Shown: one piece after another, positions 5,787-15,018 of the stretch
Layout: every line of letters starts with the position of its first letter
How positions within the stretch are numbered: the stretch's first letter is position 1
DNA from: Candidatus Palauibacter polyketidifaciens
Lineage (GTDB): Bacteria > Gemmatimonadota > Gemmatimonadetes > Palauibacterales > Palauibacteraceae
Direction: 5' to 3'
NCBI RefSeq assembly: GCF_947581785.1
Contig: NZ_CANPVO010000025.1
Span: 1 to 64,000, forward strand
DNA: 64,000 bases
Program-made: the position numbers and the translations under genes
Notes under the pieces: generated by a model
Told to the model about the DNA's origin: nothing
The model's database searches: none
Seen by the model: the letters and a program-made list of their open reading frames with translations, nothing else

Positions 5787-5804
5787 CGACCGACGGCGAG
5801 GCCC
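5767..5804 (+). terminator. Hairpin overlapping the GGT stop codon
   Basis: GGCCTCGCC at 5767 pairs with GGCGAGGCC ending at 5804, continued by TCGG/CCGA after one mismatch, giving a roughly 13-bp stem over a 10-nt loop that contains the TGA of the GGT gene. There is no T-tract after it, so it is a terminator-like hairpin rather than a canonical intrinsic terminator. Confidence 0.45.
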
Positions 5805-5860
5805 CGGACAAGCAGGCCTATTCTGCGCGTCACTCGCCCTGAAGGTAACGCGCCACGCCG

Positions 5861-6646
5861 CTAGTCAGAGTCCGGCAGCCAGAGAAGTGACAGGATCTGC
5901 CCCAGACTAGGGATGGCATGCGTACTCTCAAGGAGGCGTACTCCACGCGCTCCCGGGTCGTCTAGCCACTCCGCCGCGTCCACGTGCTCACAATGGGGAT
6001 TCGTCGGCTCTCCACGCGTGACCGACGCCGCCAATGTGCCACCGCGGACTTTCTGCCCGCGGGTAGCCATGTGGTAGTAGAAGTTTGAGCGCTCCTGCCA
6101 TTCCACGTATCCGTTTCGGGTTGCAATCAAGGCGCAGCTTTCGTTGGAGACCTGAACAATCCGACGCGCGGCGGCAGTGATTGAGACGTTGTAGTGACCA
6201 GGGGACGACAACCGATGGGCTGCCTCGACGCTTACGTCGAGTTGTCGCGCATCTGCTCTGAATAGCTTGGCGGGCATCAAGAGTTCAGCCGCGAACGAAT
6301 TGGCTTCCCACTCCAGTTGACGGCCGAAACCCTCGGTTGCTTGGAGCGACGACTCCTTGCAGCGGCGCTGCTCTTTTTTGTGCGTCGGGATATGGTAGTG
6401 CGCGAGTTCATGCGCGATCGAGAAACGACGGCGGCCTGTGCTTTGACCCGGCTCGAGAAAGATCGCCCCACCGTCTGCGTAAGGATTTGGCATGAGGCAT
6501 GCGGTACAGCCGGGGTCGGGTTCGTCGAAATCGATGATCTCGATGCCATCCCGCGCGGCGATCTCGGTCAGATCGCATTGCCGTACGTCTCGGAGCTTGA
6601 GGGCTTGACGAAAATGCTGTGCGAACCGGAGGCCTTCCGGATTCAC
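5861..6646 (-). CDS. ImmA/IrrE family metallo-endopeptidase
   Basis: 261 aa. The zinc-peptidase motif HELAH occurs at residues 79-83 within FSIAHELAHYHIP, with a second-half motif EWEANSFAAELLMP that supplies the third ligand of the ImmA family. Proteins of this family cleave or control a partner repressor, as ImmA does for ImmR. Its start codon overlaps the stop of the XRE regulator by the four bases ATGA, so the two are translationally coupled and form a regulator-protease pair. The C-terminal 90 residues are not part of the peptidase core and I do not recognise them. It sits at the edge of a restriction-modification island, a common place for such pairs. Confidence 0.85.
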   Translation of the reverse strand: MNPEGLRFAQHFRQALKLRDVRQCDLTEIAARDGIEIIDFDEPDPGCTACLMPNPYADGGAIFLEPGQSTGRRRFSIAHELAHYHIPTHKKEQRRCKESSLQATEGFGRQLEWEANSFAAELLMPAKLFRADARQLDVSVEAAHRLSSPGHYNVSITAAARRIVQVSNESCALIATRNGYVEWQERSNFYYHMATRGQKVRGGTLAASVTRGEPTNPHCEHVDAAEWLDDPGARGVRLLESTHAIPSLGQILSLLWLPDSD

Positions 6647-6981
6647 GCTTGTTCGTCTCCATCCTCATCGATGCCGTGCGTCGTTCGGAGAAACTGCGCG
6701 AACTGACTGAGCTGGCGGCGGGCACTCTCTGAGAGGCCCCGGAATTCCCGGAAGTATGCTTCTTCCTCAGGATTCAAATCGCTGATCTCCGTCTCCCCCA
6801 AGACGTATCCGATGGTAACACTCAGAGCAGTCGCGAGTCTGCGGAGCATGTCGTACGACGGGTTACGCTCACCAGCCTCAATCTGCGAAATCGTTGATTG
6901 GGACGTTCCGACCAACTCCGCGAATTGAGTCTGCGACAGCCCCTGATCCTCACGTATCTGCTGCAATCGTGCACCGAGCTC
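6643..6981 (-). CDS. XRE-family transcriptional regulator, partner of the ImmA-like protease
   Basis: 112 aa. A typical helix-turn-helix occupies residues 4-60 (LSQTQFAELVGTSQSTISQIEAGERNPS). The GTG at 6981 is preferred over the GTG at 7011 because AAGGAGG ends five bases before it and lies inside the longer reading. The C-terminal segment is acidic. It probably represses the divergent promoters in the 7.0-kb intergenic region and is inactivated by the coupled ImmA-like protease, as in ImmR/ImmA; this is inference from the family. Confidence 0.85.
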   Translation of the reverse strand, partial: ELGARLQQIREDQGLSQTQFAELVGTSQSTISQIEAGERNPSYDMLRRLATALSVTIGYVLGETEISDLNPEEEAYFREFRGLSESARRQLSQFAQFLRTTHGIDEDGDEQA

Positions 6982-7021
6982 CACGGCTTCCTCCTTTTCG
7001 CGGATTATCACGATGTTGCTT

Positions 7022-7060
7022 GCGATGCATCGCTATACGGTATTATCCTGTTTAGCGATG
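7022..7060. promoter_or_regulatory. Candidate operator: three GCGATG half-sites between divergent genes
   Basis: GCGATGCATCGC at 7022-7033 is a perfect 12-bp palindrome. A further copy of the half-site lies at 7055-7060, making CATCGCTA (7028-7035) and TAGCGATG (7053-7060) a perfect 8-bp inverted repeat with 17 bp between. TATTAT/GATAAT-like -10 sequences sit in the gap. The site is 40-80 bp upstream of the XRE start, which fits autoregulation by that protein. Confidence 0.45.
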
Positions 7061-7271
7061 GCTGGTGCCACGATTACGAATACACCGCTCCGGTGCCGGT
7101 CGCAACGCCGACGGGACGAGCGAGGTGGGCGAGATATGGACCTCCGTGAACTTCGAGCGTTTGGCGTGGCCGCTGACAAGCCGGAAACCGGGGTATCGAT
7201 CCAGCCAGGCGGGTACATCGAACTCGGACGAGGACCCGTCTCAAGATCTGCTCCGGGGAAGGAGTTGTATC

Positions 7272-7415
7272 ATGTCAAACGACAAGCCGCAGGAACCGGT
7301 GGATCCCCACAAAAAGCCGGATGTCGAGAAGCCGGACGATCATCGTCCGCCGATAACGCCGGTTCGTCCGCCGATAAGACCCGTTCGCCCGCACACACCC
7401 TCGGGCATCGGCTGA
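7272..7415 (+). CDS. Small proline/lysine-rich peptide upstream of the E2-like protein
   Basis: 47 aa starting MSNDKPQEPVDPHKK and ending SGIG. The ATG at 7272 has a strong Shine-Dalgarno sequence (GGAAGGAG) about 6 nt upstream. The middle carries a repeated RPPI-x-PVRP unit. It has no recognisable domain and looks disordered. Its TGA overlaps a CTG that begins the readable frame of the E2-like gene (CTGA), so the two are probably co-translated. The C-terminal glycine next to an E2-like enzyme is suggestive but proves nothing. I do not recognise the gene. Confidence 0.55.
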   Translation: MSNDKPQEPVDPHKKPDVEKPDDHRPPITPVRPPIRPVRPHTPSGIG

Positions 7416-8023
7416 ACAGGGCGCTGGGGCTCGAAGAGTTACAGCGCTGGTATCCGACCGCCGCAGTACGCAACAGCTCCTCGAGCCTCGCCCATCTATC
7501 AACCCATGTCGGCGTGATTCGACCGTTGCCGTATCGTGGCCGATTGGTGCTGGAAATCCCGCTGAACGGCCCTTACAGAGTTCCGTCACGACTGCCCTCC
7601 ACCACCAACACGTATGTTCCGGATGTACGCATTTGGGCTACGTGGGAGGACGGCGTGCGTCCCGCAGGCTATCATGTTTACCCCGACGCCAGCCTCTGCA
7701 CGCACATGCAGGGGGAGTGGATCTGGGGGGTGAGTCCGCTGCACGATCTCGTGGACTGGTCGGTGCTCTGGCTAGCGAAGTCCCTGCACCTGCAACTCCT
7801 GAACCGGTGGCCTGGTCCCCAACATTGTTCCGCTAACGTCGCGATGAAGCGAGGGATGTTGGACGAGTACTGCCGGTGTGGGAAGCACGCGCGATATCGT
7901 GAATGCCACTACGCCCAGGATCGTAACTGGTCTCGGTATGAACTCTTCCGGGAAGAACGGGAGGGGGCCGCAGAATACCTTTCGGAACTCCGGCGAAGTG
8001 GCCGGCCAGCCGGACCACTGTAG
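7412..8023 (+). CDS. E2-like (ubiquitin-conjugating fold) protein with C-terminal SEC-C-like zinc motif
   Basis: About 203 aa. The body reads as a prokaryotic E2-like domain: an N-terminal helix (LEELQRWYP), beta strands ending in RLVLEIPL, a PDVRIW strand, and the active-site-like segment HVYPDASLC with Cys96, followed by W/L-rich helices (WSVLWLAKSLHLQLLNRW). Residues 154-166 (CRCG, then CH) resemble a SEC-C metal-binding motif. Such proteins occur in CBASS type II and other Ub-like conjugation operons, but no E1, JAB protease or nucleotide cyclase is nearby. No ATG/GTG/TTG fits the start: the frame opens at a CTG (7412) overlapping the upstream stop; a GTG at 7514 would remove the first helix. 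The open frame further upstream does not look like protein. Converges with the restriction enzyme gene. Confidence 0.55.
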   Translation: MNRALGLEELQRWYPTAAVRNSSSSLAHLSTHVGVIRPLPYRGRLVLEIPLNGPYRVPSRLPSTTNTYVPDVRIWATWEDGVRPAGYHVYPDASLCTHMQGEWIWGVSPLHDLVDWSVLWLAKSLHLQLLNRWPGPQHCSANVAMKRGMLDEYCRCGKHARYRECHYAQDRNWSRYELFREEREGAAEYLSELRRSGRPAGPL

Positions 8024-8076
8024 GGCGCCACGCACCCGTGAACTGAAATCCCTTACCGTTCTTGACCCTGGTTTTG

Positions 8077-9015
8077 TCATTTCCTCGGTCCCAGATACCG
8101 GTCTCCATCGTAGTGGATCATGTGATCTGGCACCTCGGCCACCCAGACTTCCGTCTCCCACGAGATGTTTCTGAGGTGCTTCTGAAACTCCCGGAAATCA
8201 GGAAAGGCACTCACGTAGACGACGCTTGCCGGACAAGCCGTCAGCATCTCTTCGAGCTCAACGACGCGCTTCGGCGACACGGGACCGTGTGAGGTCACGG
8301 CCTCCACCAAGAACAACCAGTTACGCTCGTCATCGTACAGCACGACGTCCGGCAGCTTGTCGTGATCATTGATTGGGATGCCGAGCCGTTGCAGCGCTAC
8401 GTCGTCGACAAGCAGGTCCTTCTTTGCCGTATCGCCCATGTACAGCAGCTGAGCGCCGGGCGCGAAGCGTGGCGCGAATTGCTCGACGATCACCTTCTGT
8501 AGCTCGTTATGCTTCCCCGGAGAGAGTCGTAGTTCGGTCCCATCCCCAACCGTGACCGGAATCATCGCCCGGTCCCGGTCTCTCGCATAGCGCTCCGCGA
8601 GAGATCCCTGCTCGCCGAGGAAGGTGGTGCGCGCGCTAGGCCATTCGTCCCCGCCGTACGTCCGCACAGCTGTCAGCGCTGCCTTCGTGATCGCGTAATG
8701 CGCGCGCGGGCTATTCGTCGGCAGATGGGGCTCAAACGGGTTGTAATCGGCGATCCCGCCCTGCATGAACTGATGAAGCACCTGGCGCCGGAAGGTCTCC
8801 CTGGTGTTGGGTGCGTACTCGATACCGTAGTGCTCCCTGACATGGCTCATGATGCTCTTGGTCACGGTGCATCCTGTCCGGCTCGCGGCCGACCAGGGGT
8901 CATCGGGTTTCAGGCCGCACAACGCCAGCAACGTGAGCCCGGACATGCGGTTGGTCTGCGCCGGCGGCATACCGAGAGCTTCGAGGATCTCCTGCGCCTC
9001 TTCAATCGTTGGCAA
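8077..9015 (-). CDS. Type II restriction endonuclease, BsuBI/PstI family
   Basis: About 312 aa, close to the 316-326 aa of BsuBI and PstI. The characteristic catalytic region PDVVLYDDERNWLFLVEAVTSHGPVSPKR-type lies near residues 215-245 (D...E-x-V, with the family-typical SHGPVS). I chose the TTG at 9015: it is preceded by an AGGG sequence, begins LPTIEEAQEIL, and overlaps the end of the methyltransferase gene by 14 bp; an ATG about 20 codons later is the alternative. By family it would cut CTGCAG or a related palindrome when unmethylated. It is read after and coupled to the methyltransferase, so protection is made first. Confidence 0.88.
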   Translation of the reverse strand: MPTIEEAQEILEALGMPPAQTNRMSGLTLLALCGLKPDDPWSAASRTGCTVTKSIMSHVREHYGIEYAPNTRETFRRQVLHQFMQGGIADYNPFEPHLPTNSPRAHYAITKAALTAVRTYGGDEWPSARTTFLGEQGSLAERYARDRDRAMIPVTVGDGTELRLSPGKHNELQKVIVEQFAPRFAPGAQLLYMGDTAKKDLLVDDVALQRLGIPINDHDKLPDVVLYDDERNWLFLVEAVTSHGPVSPKRVVELEEMLTACPASVVYVSAFPDFREFQKHLRNISWETEVWVAEVPDHMIHYDGDRYLGPRK

Positions 9016-10669
9016 GGGCCCTGTCCCCTTCGTCCACCGGTGTCTGCAGGAGAGTGGTAACGAGCTCTTCCAAGCCGTTCGTGCGATTCGGAAGGTGTCT
9101 CGCCTGCTTGCCGAGAGCCCGGATCGTTTCACGTGGTGGAAGTGGCATGGCCCGAATCTCCGTAGCACTCACCTGCGTGTTGCCGCTCATGGCCCTGAAG
9201 TAAGTGTCGAGCAACTCGCTATTGAAGAGAGCCGCCAACCCCCAGGTTTCGTCTGCGGACAGGGCTCCGCCGGGTCGATGGATGTAGTTCAGGTGATTCT
9301 CGAACCCCACGGCGGGCGTTGTGAGATCGTCCGCAAGGTAAGGGGCTGCCGTCAATCTGCGCGGTTCCTCCTTGGCGCTGAATCGGCGCAGGAGCACGTA
9401 GTTCCGGTTGGGGAGGAGCAGGGACCCCGCCCCGGATTGCGCGATATACTCCGGCTTATGCCGGTTCAGAGGCCAAGTAGTCCGCATCGCCCTTACGTGG
9501 TTCATCCAGAGTAGGGGTACGTGGGTTGCGGGCACGGCACCGCTCTTTCGGATGAGCGACTCCGCGCGGAAGGGGACGACGCGGCCTGTGGAGATGTTGA
9601 GGCCCAAGCTCTGAAGGGTATTCGGCCATGAATCCACGAGCGTAATGATCTCGTCGACCCTCTCGTCCGGCGACAATCGCAAAACTCGACCCGAGGAGGT
9701 GACGTCGAGAATCCCGGCGGCGGGAACTGTGCGCTGGTCCGCATGGCCAAGATCGTCCACCCCGGCACTTGCAGAAACGGCGATGGAGAAGGCCGTGTCG
9801 CTACAGTGCCAGTTGGGCTCGCGAAGACCGGTGAAGATCACGCTTTCCTGCAACACGTCATCGCGCCTGAAAGCGGCGCGGCGCGATTCGAACAGGTGAA
9901 TCTCGGCCGGTCGAATCTGATCGAAGAAAACGCTCCGGAAGCGCCGGAAGTACGGCCCCGAAGCGAAGCTGCGGGGGACGATGAATACGAAACTGCCGCC
10001 GTCGCGAAGAAGCATCGCGCTGACGGCCATGAAGAGCGCATAGATGTTCGGCTGGCCATGAACTACGGAGGAAGCCGCCAGAGCGCGCGGGTCGCCCTTC
10101 CCGATCTTGAAGTAGGGCGGGTTGGAGATCACGACGTCGAAATCCGGGTCTCGCGGGCCGGTCGTGAAGAGATCGTTGGCCGCACCCAGACTCTCAGCGT
10201 TGGCGAGAACAAAGTCAGCTGCCTCTACGCGAACATCCACCTTGAGGTCGCGTGACCGTCGGACCCAATTCACCAAGTAGGTCAAGACAGCTTGTAGGGG
10301 CTCGATAAGATCCTTATCGATTTCGAAAGCGACGACTTCGATGTGCTCCGGAACTGGATCGCGAGAAACAAGAGATTCGATTGCAGAGCAGCAAAGGACT
10401 CCGGCTCCGGCGGCCGGATCCAGGACGCGAACGCGCTCTGCGCTCGACGGAATCCGGGCGGCCATGAAATCGGCGACCGGCACGGGCGTCAGGTAGAGCC
10501 CGTGATCTTTCCTGTGCCGAGTCGACTTGCGCGACACGTACCACTCGCCGACCCGGTCGGCATATGCGACAGGCCGCTCTCCGGATCTGGGCAGCGGCAT
10601 GCCCATGGCATCGGGCTCCCGGCCGCGAGCCTCGATCCGTTTCCTGCTTTCCTGCTGTTGAACCGTCAT
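9002..10669 (-). CDS. N6-adenine DNA methyltransferase of the BsuBI/PstI-type R-M system
   Basis: About 555 aa. AdoMet motif I is DPAAGAGVL at about residue 84, and catalytic motif IV is NPPY at 183-186, the order of gamma-class adenine methyltransferases. A C-terminal half (about 300-555) would be target recognition. The ATG at 10669 follows GAGGTGGGG directly and is preferred to the upstream in-frame Met. It methylates the site recognised by the neighbouring nuclease and is transcribed first. Codon use and GC are lower than in the flanking metabolic genes, consistent with horizontal transfer of the island. Confidence 0.9.
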   Translation of the reverse strand: MTVQQQESRKRIEARGREPDAMGMPLPRSGERPVAYADRVGEWYVSRKSTRHRKDHGLYLTPVPVADFMAARIPSSAERVRVLDPAAGAGVLCCSAIESLVSRDPVPEHIEVVAFEIDKDLIEPLQAVLTYLVNWVRRSRDLKVDVRVEAADFVLANAESLGAANDLFTTGPRDPDFDVVISNPPYFKIGKGDPRALAASSVVHGQPNIYALFMAVSAMLLRDGGSFVFIVPRSFASGPYFRRFRSVFFDQIRPAEIHLFESRRAAFRRDDVLQESVIFTGLREPNWHCSDTAFSIAVSASAGVDDLGHADQRTVPAAGILDVTSSGRVLRLSPDERVDEIITLVDSWPNTLQSLGLNISTGRVVPFRAESLIRKSGAVPATHVPLLWMNHVRAMRTTWPLNRHKPEYIAQSGAGSLLLPNRNYVLLRRFSAKEEPRRLTAAPYLADDLTTPAVGFENHLNYIHRPGGALSADETWGLAALFNSELLDTYFRAMSGNTQVSATEIRAMPLPPRETIRALGKQARHLPNRTNGLEELVTTLLQTPVDEGDRALAND

Positions 10670-10795
10670 CCCCACCTCGCCTCTACCCTGCCTCCCACTC
10701 ACCCGCGACAAACGTCGGGTCGAGGATCATCGGGCCGTCAACTTCCACACCGTACACGGCGAACGTCGAGCGAGGCAAACCGACATGTTCCGACC

Positions 10796-13700
10796 TTAGC
10801 CGCCGGGGAGGGGGCGGCCGGGGGTCCAGGGGGCGCCGGCGGCTTCGAGCGCGGTCTCGGCGCCGGCGAAGGCGCCGTCCATGAAGTTCCGGAACTCGGC
10901 GAGCCAGTCGCCGAAGTCCGTCTCGGCGATCTCCAGGTTGCGGCGGTGGGTCGCCGTCGGCGTCTGGCGCGTGTCCCAGTGGCCGCCGATCACCCGTCCC
11001 ACGCGGTTCGAGATCGAGGGCACGGTGGACTCGTTGAGGCGCTGCCGGGCCGGGTCGCCGAATAGCCGGATCGAGAAGTCCTGCAGGCCGGCGCCGAGCG
11101 TATCGAGGTCGCCGAACAGTTCCAGCGGGGCGTCCGGCGCCTCGAGAAGCGCGGCCCGCATGTGACGCAGCCGATCGCGGGCGCGGCCGATCTCCTCGCC
11201 CGCCGAGGCGATGCGGCGGCTCAACTCCGACGCCTCGTTCTGGAAGGCGACGACGGCCCCGAAGTCCGTTCCCGGCTCCGCCGTGGGCACCGCTTTCACC
11301 TCGAACGCCTGCGCCCGGCCGACCTCCCGCGCGCCGTCGGCCGTCACCACGACGAGTTGCGCGGAGTATTCGCCGGGGGCGACGAGAGGCCCCTGGGGCG
11401 GTCCCACCCACGGCGGCGTGAAGCCGGGGACCGTGAGGTCGATCGGATCGGGCGCCGGGGACCGCAGATCCCAGCTCACGCGGTGCAGCCCTTCCCTCGC
11501 GGGGCCGGCGACCCAGCGCACGGTCCGCCCGTCCGCATCGGCGATCGCGACCAGCGCCCGGGGTCCGCTCTCCGTCGCCTCCTGGTTCAGCACGTCGTAG
11601 CCGGGGAACGCCACATCTCCCCCGCCCGCTCGCACCTCCCCTTCGGCGGCGCGGCGGGCCTCCGCCATCGTCGTCGATGTCTCAGGCAGATAGTAGGAGA
11701 TCACGGCGCCGAAGTCCGGGTTCGGCGCGGTGTAGTCGTCCGTCCCGAGCGTCGGCTTGCCGCGCGCCTGCAGGGGCACGGACGGGATGTACCACCACGC
11801 GTCGCGCACCGGGAACAGCGCGCCGCCATCGGCGGCGGCCATGGCCGTATTCTCGCCGCCCGCCAGTTCGCGCAGCGGCGTGTAGTCGTCGAGCACGTAG
11901 AAGCCGCGGCCGAAAGTCGACCCGACCACGTCGTTGTCCCGCCGCTGGACCTCCAGATCTCGGTGCGGGATCGTGGGGCCCGGAAGCATGTGCCAGTTCT
12001 CGCCCCCGTTCACGCTCGCGTACATCCCGAACTCGGCTCCGAGGAAGAGGAGGTTCGGGTTCAGGTGGTCCTGCTCGATCGCCCACAGGATCGTGCCGTC
12101 CGGCAGGTCGCCGGAGATCGACTGCCAGGAGAGCCCCGCGTCGTCGCTCCGGAAGAGGAGCGGCCGGAAGTCGCCCTCCTTGTGGTTGTCCGCCACCGCG
12201 AACACAGTCGAGGCGAGGTGCTGCGAGGCTTCGATGTCGTTGATGAACGCCCGTTCCGGCACGCCGGGCAGCGGGGCCGCGAGCCGCCAGTTCGCCCCGC
12301 CGTCCTCCGTCACGTGGATGAGGCCGTCATCGCTCCCCGTGTAGATCACGCCCGCCGTGACCGGCGACTCGGAGATCCCCGTGAGGGTCGCGTACTTCGA
12401 CATGGCGCCGTTGTCGATGAGGTCGTCGACGCTCCACACCCGCCCCATGAACTCCAGCTCGTAGCGGTTCACGTTCGTCGTCAGGTCGCCGCTGATCGCG
12501 GTCCACGAGTTGCCCCGGTCGTCGCTCGCCCACACGCGCTGCGAGCCGTGGTAGATTCGGTCGGCGTCGTGCGGACTGATGAGGACGGGCGAGTCCCAGT
12601 TCCAGCGTTCGGGCGGGTCGCCGGGCGCGGGCTGCGCCTGGATGTCGAGCGCCTCCTCGCTCTTCCGGTCGTAGCGGTAGAGGTTCCCCTGCTGCGTCTG
12701 CAGGTAGAGGATGTCCGGATCCCGCGGGTCGATCTGGACCGCGTACCCGTCCGCCCCCATCGGCGCGTACCAGTCCCGGTTCCGGACCCCCTCGACGTTC
12801 GTCGTGCGGGCGGGACCCCACAGCGTGCCGAGATCCTGCGCCCCGCCGAGCACGTTGTAGAACGGCTCCGCGTTGTCGAGCGCGAGCTTGTAGAACTGCG
12901 AGATGGGCAGGTTCGGGAAGTGACGGAAGGTGCGGCCGTCGTCGAAGCTCTCGTACAGGCCGGCGTCCGTCCCCACCAGCAGGTGCAGCGGGTCCTCGGG
13001 ATCGACCCAGAGGGCGTGGTTGTCGCTGTGCTTGTCGCGCGCCGTCTCGAGGTTCCCGAACGTCGCGCCCCCGTCCCGCGTGACCTGGATGAAGACGTCC
13101 ATCTGGTACACGACGTCCGCGTCGTGCGGGGAGGCTTCGATCTCCTGGTAGTAGTGGGGACCCGTGCCCCCGGAGATGTACGAGTTCCGCCGCTCCCAGC
13201 TCTCCCCCTTGTCGAGGGACCGGTAGAAGCCGCGCTCGTCGTCGTTCGCCTCGATGGTCGCGTACACGACCTCGGGGTTCGCCGGGGTGACGGCGAGTCC
13301 GATCTTTCCCACATCGCCGCCCGGGAGTCCCGCCGTAATCCGGCGCCAGCCCTCGCCGCCATCGCTGGACTTGTAGATGCCGGAGTTGGGGCCGCCGGCG
13401 AGGTGCCCCCAGATCTTCCGCCGCCGCTCGTACGCCGCCGCGTAGATCATGTCCGGGTTGCCGGGGGCGAACTCGATGTCGGTGACGCCGGTGTTCTCGT
13501 CGATCCCCAGCACGAGCCGCCAGGAGTCGCCGCCGTCGGTGGACTTGTAGACGCCGCGCTCACCGCCCGCGGCCCAGAGCGACCCCTCCGCCGCCACGAG
13601 GATGACGTCGCTGTCGCGCGGGTCGACGAGGATCTTGCCGATGTGCTCCGAGGTGGGGAGCCCGACGTTCTCCCACGTCTCCCCGCCGTTGCGGCTGCGG

Positions 13701-14299: not shown

Positions 14300-14701
14300 T
14301 CAGTTCCTGCGGGGCGACCGGGAACGCCAGGCCGCGGCCAGCGCCCGGTCGAACGTCATAAGGTCGTCGGGTTGACGGCGAATGCAGCACGCGAGGTGGA
14401 CGAGATCGCGCGCCTCGAGTTCCGGATGTCGGACTACCATGTCACAGGCCATTTGCACGTCCTCACGGTGGACGGACCAGACCTCGGTCACGGTGGCTTC
14501 AACAAGATCGAACGCCGGGCGCAGTCGGTGTTGCTGATCCCTGCTGACGTAGACGTGCAGGAGTTCCTGAAGAATCTCGGCGGACGTCACGAGCGGGGTA
14601 TTCCGCTCCCTCGACCGCTCGAAGAAGGATCGGGCCTCGTCTCGGCGGGGATCTTCGGAACCGACGAAGTACATGAAGACGTTGGCGTCGACGAAGATCA
14701 G
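14300..14701 (-). CDS. PIN-domain ribonuclease toxin (VapC-like)
   Basis: About 133 aa. The PIN pattern is present: FVDANVFMYF at the start, TSAEILQELLH, then RDLVHLACCIRR and MTFDRAL at the end, providing the four acidic metal ligands. It follows the antitoxin with a CTG (14701) that overlaps the antitoxin TGA as CTGA; no ATG, GTG or TTG gives the complete first strand, so a CTG start is likely. VapC toxins cleave tRNA or rRNA when freed from VapB; the target here is unknown. Confidence 0.82.
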   Translation of the reverse strand: MIFVDANVFMYFVGSEDPRRDEARSFFERSRERNTPLVTSAEILQELLHVYVSRDQQHRLRPAFDLVEATVTEVWSVHREDVQMACDMVVRHPELEARDLVHLACCIRRQPDDLMTFDRALAAAWRSRSPRRN

Positions 14702-14979
14702 AGGAGGCCCAGCTTTCTCGCGGAACTGAGCTTCCCTTCGCCGATCAGGCGCTTGGTCTCCTCCCAGTCCGGCTCCTTGGCGCCGGGGGGATGCATCGCG
14801 TCGCACTTGGCGGCGAACGCCTTGAGTTCCTCTACGGTGAACAGACGCGGACGGGCGGCCTCCAGCTTCTCGTCGGCTGCCTCGCGCAGCCATTGCCCGA
14901 GGGACTTCCCCTCACGCTCCGCCTCCGCCTGGTAGCTGATCTTGGCGGTCTCCTTAACGACGAAGTGGATCCTCGACAT
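14698..14979 (-). CDS. Antitoxin partner of the PIN toxin
   Basis: 93 aa starting MSRIHFVVKETAKISYQ. The ATG at 14979 has GAGAGGGG upstream; an ATG at 15000 would add seven residues. An N-terminal beta strand and helix fit a small dimeric DNA-binding antitoxin, and the C-terminal part (RLFTVEELKAFAAKCD) would wrap the toxin. I do not recognise a specific family; the role rests on its size and its coupled position before the PIN gene. Confidence 0.7.
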   Translation of the reverse strand: MSRIHFVVKETAKISYQAEAEREGKSLGQWLREAADEKLEAARPRLFTVEELKAFAAKCDAMHPPGAKEPDWEETKRLIGEGKLSSARKLGLL

Positions 14980-14993
14980 TGACCCCTCTCGGA

Positions 14994-15018
14994 TGTGCAT
15001 ATTTTTGACACATGCACA
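14994..15018. promoter_or_regulatory. Candidate operator of the 14.3-15.0 kb toxin-antitoxin pair
   Basis: TGTGCAT (14994-15000) and ATGCACA (15012-15018) form a perfect 7-bp inverted repeat with 11 bp between, 15-40 bp upstream of the antitoxin ATG. The A/T-rich gap fits a -10 region. Autoregulation by the toxin-antitoxin complex is the usual arrangement and is inferred here. Confidence 0.45.

Follow-up and report, generated by a model that had tools for sequence, protein, structure and literature searches.

What does an E2-like protein do in a bacterium when it lies beside a pair of regulators typical of antiphage immunity and no E1 or CD-NTase partner is encoded nearby? This question is raised by a stretch of 64,000 nucleotides from Candidatus Palauibacter polyketidifaciens (contig NZ_CANPVO010000025.1, positions 1 to 64,000; hereafter the window). 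An earlier note had described three adjacent modules there, all with a GC content below that of their surroundings: an XRE/ImmA pair, an E2-like protein with a small peptide and a PstI-type restriction-modification (R-M) system. All three are present (Table 1), and the GC content was measured at 0.59–0.63 within the island and 0.68–0.73 in the flanks.

The island and its cargo

In at least six congeners (L090, L091, L092, L069, L072, and L075), window position 5804 is joined straight to position 10797, with about 14 bp between them, which indicates that the island is one discrete insertion or replacement of about 5.0 kb. The R-M assignment proved right, as both BsuBI/PstI endonuclease domains and an adenine methyltransferase were detected with Pfam. 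The R-M system was nevertheless rejected as a component of the E2 module because the genes beside E2 differ among relatives: the arrangement of regulator and E2 recurs in other genomes, whereas the R-M genes do not recur beside E2, and they look like separate, ordinary cargo. Outside the island, on the minus strand at 14300-15000, the window also carries ORFs whose translations, on inspection, resemble a toxin of the VapC (PIN-domain) kind and an accompanying small antitoxin.

Table 1. Coordinates of the features discussed, in window positions.
Feature	Position	Strand	Evidence or remark
Low-GC island	5805-10796	none	Missing from the corresponding site of six or more congeners
CapP-like ImmA/IrrE (M78) metallopeptidase	5861-6646	-	Pfam M78 2.4e-16; PADLOC capP 165.5 bits
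CapH-like XRE repressor	6643-7011	-	HTH_3 9.6e-19; PADLOC capH 67.5 bits
Operator-like inverted repeat	7028-7060	none	16-nt arms, 81% complementary
E2-like protein, 295 aa	7136-8023	+	N-terminal module, disordered linker, UBC-like core, SEC-C-like zinc tail
N-terminal module (helix + beta hairpin)	7136-7234	+	Conserved across the family
Linker within the E2-like protein, predicted to be disordered	7247-7369	+	Largely overlaps the nested peptide ORF
Shine-Dalgarno site GGAAGGAG for the nested peptide	7257-7264	+	7 nt upstream of the peptide ATG
Nested peptide gene, 47 aa (MSNDKPQEPVDPHKKPDVEKPDDHRPPITPVRPPIRPVRPHTPSGIG)	7272-7415	+	+1 frame, wholly inside the E2 gene
Putative catalytic Cys188	7697-7699	+	Invariant in the alignment
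SEC-C-like zinc motif CxCG...CH (C246, C248, C257, H258)	7871-7909	+	Alignment, profile comparison
BsuBI/PstI-type restriction endonuclease	8077-9168	-	Pfam 1.2e-60 and 1.2e-40; separate cargo
N6-adenine methyltransferase of the R-M pair	9002-10711	-	Pfam Eco57I 4.5e-14; PADLOC MTase_II 335 bits; separate cargo

The E2-like protein and its divergent regulators

Relatives of the E2-like protein were collected from plasmids by tblastn and from genome contigs by a profile scan, which gave 41 loci; further ones came later from the class to which the window belongs. All of them extend the E2 frame upstream through the conserved N-terminal module, so that the start at 7412 given in the earlier note has been moved to the ATG at 7136. 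No family in Pfam, NCBIfam or PHROGs covers either the E2-like protein or the nested peptide described below, a sequence search of the PDB with the E2 profile returned chance matches only, and no relatives were found in the viral contigs and phages searched. When the E2 domains were compared with six CBASS E2s from PADLOC, hhalign gave a probability of 96 (E 2.7e-9) over 154 columns that span both the active cysteine and the zinc tail, and the PADLOC CBASS E2s in turn matched human UBE2W (E 1.4e-6). By profile comparison the protein is thus a remote homologue of the E2 enzymes of CBASS, and its tail is of the SEC-C zinc type. Cys188 is unchanged in 33 of 33 aligned sequences; the window protein carries HVY where most relatives carry HTN.

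AlphaFold modeled the relative L045 with a mean pLDDT of 81.9, residues 36-80 alone being disordered, and the window protein more poorly (pLDDT 64.7, with residues 38-78 below 50). E2s led the Foldseek matches of both models, but these matches were weak and below significance (E > 0.3; TM to target 0.40–0.49).

Some copies are irregular or poorly annotated. At L012 (7200-8387) the E2 core is frameshifted, through an assembly error or in a broken copy, and the peptide is intact; records from Rhizobium phaseoli and R. etli plasmids match about 44% of E2 in two pieces, which suggests decayed copies. Gene callers can also miss E2: in the Rhizobium etli plasmid NZ_CP020910.1 (L002, 5732-6567) the peptide and E2 are annotated as separate hypothetical proteins, E2 from an internal start, with the upstream part of its frame left unannotated, and in Sulfitobacter an E2-matching stretch lies where no feature is annotated at all.

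The idea that the XRE/ImmA pair controls E2 is well supported. In 38 of the 41 loci a regulator of the CapH/CapP or CapW type is encoded divergently next to the E2 relative, as an M78 protein with a separate or fused XRE domain in 31 of them and as a WYL (CapW-like) protein in seven, and in the window an inverted repeat, which is likely to be the operator, separates the divergent genes. By inspection, the true start of XRE is probably the GTG at 6984, behind AAGGAGG. The E2 of L044 resembles roseobacter E2s that stand under an M78 fusion, yet it has a WYL regulator; this indicates regulator swapping, and the divergent regulator is, judging from these gene arrangements, interchangeable. L014 (1727-4589) has neither M78 nor WYL ahead of E2; in their place stand a response regulator and a 754-aa ORF that may encode its sensor kinase. 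CapP and CapW have been reported to respond to ssDNA and to have CBASS, Bub, and further operons of immunity under their control, and the CapH/CapP homologues act through ssDNA-activated cleavage of the repressor (PMC13373217).

The absence of an E1, JAB or CD-NTase neighbor, which had already been remarked on, was borne out: none is encoded nearby, searches of the genome detected neither a JAB nor a SMODS CD-NTase, and the single ThiF copy of this genome lies on another contig. Similarly, no E1 (ThiF), JAB, ubiquitin-like or CD-NTase family recurred among the 124 neighbor proteins of 32 loci, where the 25 most frequent families were listed and a lone E1 beside one locus could escape the tally. 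Pfam and PADLOC revealed no CBASS effector-like gene in the window island. The neighbors of the E2 relatives are defense genes in some loci only. At L004 (7564-11651), on a Sulfitobacter plasmid, genes for a large AAA ATPase and a helicase adjoin E2; a GajA/GajB match was present among the scanned neighbors, and these adjoining genes are probably Gabija-like.

A peptide gene nested in the E2 gene

The most unusual feature of the locus is that its small peptide is dual-coding, which the earlier note missed. New here is that the predicted gene of this peptide sits within E2, shifted into the +1 frame and spanning the disordered linker; the overlap coincides with the region of low pLDDT both in the window protein and in a relative. 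The nested arrangement recurs at about 50 loci, almost all of them from proteobacteria or from the window genome's class, and every locus inspected has, across the linker, a +1-frame ATG ORF of about 37–63 codons behind a Shine-Dalgarno-like sequence. The typical peptide of the relatives reads EDPQPDHGKGPPEGKGRPxxPGRPVxPHRSSAQ.

Two signals indicate that both frames are under selection. Substitutions in the overlap cluster at third positions of the peptide frame and are synonymous there about twice as often as expected (329 vs. 150, 192 vs. 94, and 128 vs. 63, in pairwise comparisons that are phylogenetically non-independent); the E2 frame in the same region shows no synonymous excess and no amino-acid constraint. 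In addition, peptide codons ending in T never occur where T would create a stop in the E2 frame (0 of 179, against 163 of 508 elsewhere, in 17 divergent representatives whose per-locus counts are phylogenetically non-independent), while the control in the E2 core gave no such effect (136/494 vs. 565/1815). Dual coding of E2 and peptide is thus strongly supported by the sequences. That the nested ORF is untranslated, its conservation being due to RNA structure or to the E2 linker, is accordingly very improbable: changes gather at peptide-frame third positions, where they are synonymous, and the E2 frame shows no constraint on its amino acids in the overlap.

The window peptide is itself divergent. 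It is not recognized by the profile of proteobacterial peptides (-5.3 bits), and when used alone as a query it found no matches in plasmids. Against L088 and L094, which belong to the same class, it nevertheless scores above all 3000 shuffles, and its stretch PVRPHTPSG also occurs in the peptide nested at L100. It ends in GIG, from which a C-terminal-glycine tag had been considered; this idea was dropped because the C-termini vary among relatives, which speaks against a ubiquitin-style C-terminal tag.

Proposed function and comparison with known systems

The module itself, a CapH/CapP-type switch and a single transcript for an E2-like enzyme with a short disordered peptide nested inside it, is well supported by comparison among genomes. 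Because the E2/peptide pair recurs in many bacteria under switches familiar from antiphage immunity, it probably forms a module for stress or defense that has so far gone undescribed. We consider it about an even chance that this is a stand-alone conjugation module which DNA damage or phage induces and whose peptide serves E2 as substrate or cofactor. Judging from the published regulators, ssDNA arising from phage attack or DNA damage would activate the M78 protease, which would cleave the XRE repressor and allow E2 and peptide to be expressed together. The E2 cysteine may then drive an E1-independent modification; the peptide would be its substrate, its tag or a cofactor that it requires, and the cell would be protected from stress or arrested in growth. 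Inducibility is thus suggested by homologous regulators, and the peptide's role, the chemistry and the antiphage activity are put forward as hypotheses. This explanation draws on the E2 homology, the invariant cysteine and zinc ligands, the recurrence of the nested peptide, the dual-frame selection and the immunity-type regulators; the weak Foldseek matches, the HVY of the window protein, the failure of its peptide against the profile and the variable C-termini count against it. The reading of the earlier note, an undescribed conjugation-like or sensor system, is supported in part, with the R-M genes excluded. More tentatively, the module may be a minimal E1-free immune system of protein conjugation, in which a disordered peptide, overprinted in the gene of its own E2, acts as modifier or substrate.

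The module could instead serve a general DNA-damage or stress response rather than antiphage defense, a possible but less probable reading. Its regulators are responsive to ssDNA and to DNA damage generally, phage protection has not been shown for Bub operons under such regulators (PMC13373217), and the neighbors are only sometimes defense genes; however, such regulators are typical of immune operons, an R-M system shares the island, and probable Gabija-like genes lie beside the L004 E2. It is rather unlikely that the two products form a toxin-antitoxin-like pair, in which the nested peptide binds and neutralizes (or activates) the E2-like protein instead of being its substrate. Co-expression fixed on one transcript, a small disordered peptide and an M78/XRE or WYL switch that represses tightly would suit such a pair, whereas E2 retains an intact, invariant cysteine and is homologous to conjugating enzymes. 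That E2 acts in trans, drawing on an E1 and a ubiquitin-like protein from elsewhere in the cell, seems unlikely: the ThiF-family protein on another contig could supply the E1, but the genome yielded no JAB, and neither these families nor a ubiquitin-like one recurred among the most frequent neighbor families of the 32 loci. That the module is what remains of a CBASS locus after loss of the cyclase, as homology to CBASS E2s might suggest, is strongly disfavored by dozens of cyclase-free loci in which the N-terminal module, the cysteine and the nested peptide are all conserved.

If the stand-alone conjugation module is real, it would be a two-protein system that works with neither E1 nor a ubiquitin-like partner, as well as a dual-coding gene pair conserved widely among bacteria, raising the testable questions of how E2 works without E1 and what the hidden peptide does.

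Among known systems, the BsuBI/PstI type II R-M systems are represented in the island by both endonuclease domains and the methyltransferase, as ordinary cargo unlinked to E2 in relatives. Bub/Bil operons may share ubiquitin-like chemistry with the module, and Bub operons also carry CapW or CapH and CapP (PMC13373217); they differ in that no E1, JAB/peptidase or ubiquitin-like gene recurs beside E2 here, among the top families listed. The CapH/CapP and CapW systems are matched in divergent upstream position, in the capP and capH scores of Table 1 and in the WYL proteins of seven relatives, but the regulators here govern an E2-only operon, of a kind for which we found no description in the literature, as far as it was accessible. 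E2-only CBASS has already been described (PMC11153139), and the E2 of this type II short CBASS is similar in its core with a catalytic cysteine, its SEC-C-like tail and its lack of an E1. The module described here, by contrast, comes without a CD-NTase or effector and adds an N-terminal module and a nested peptide gene.
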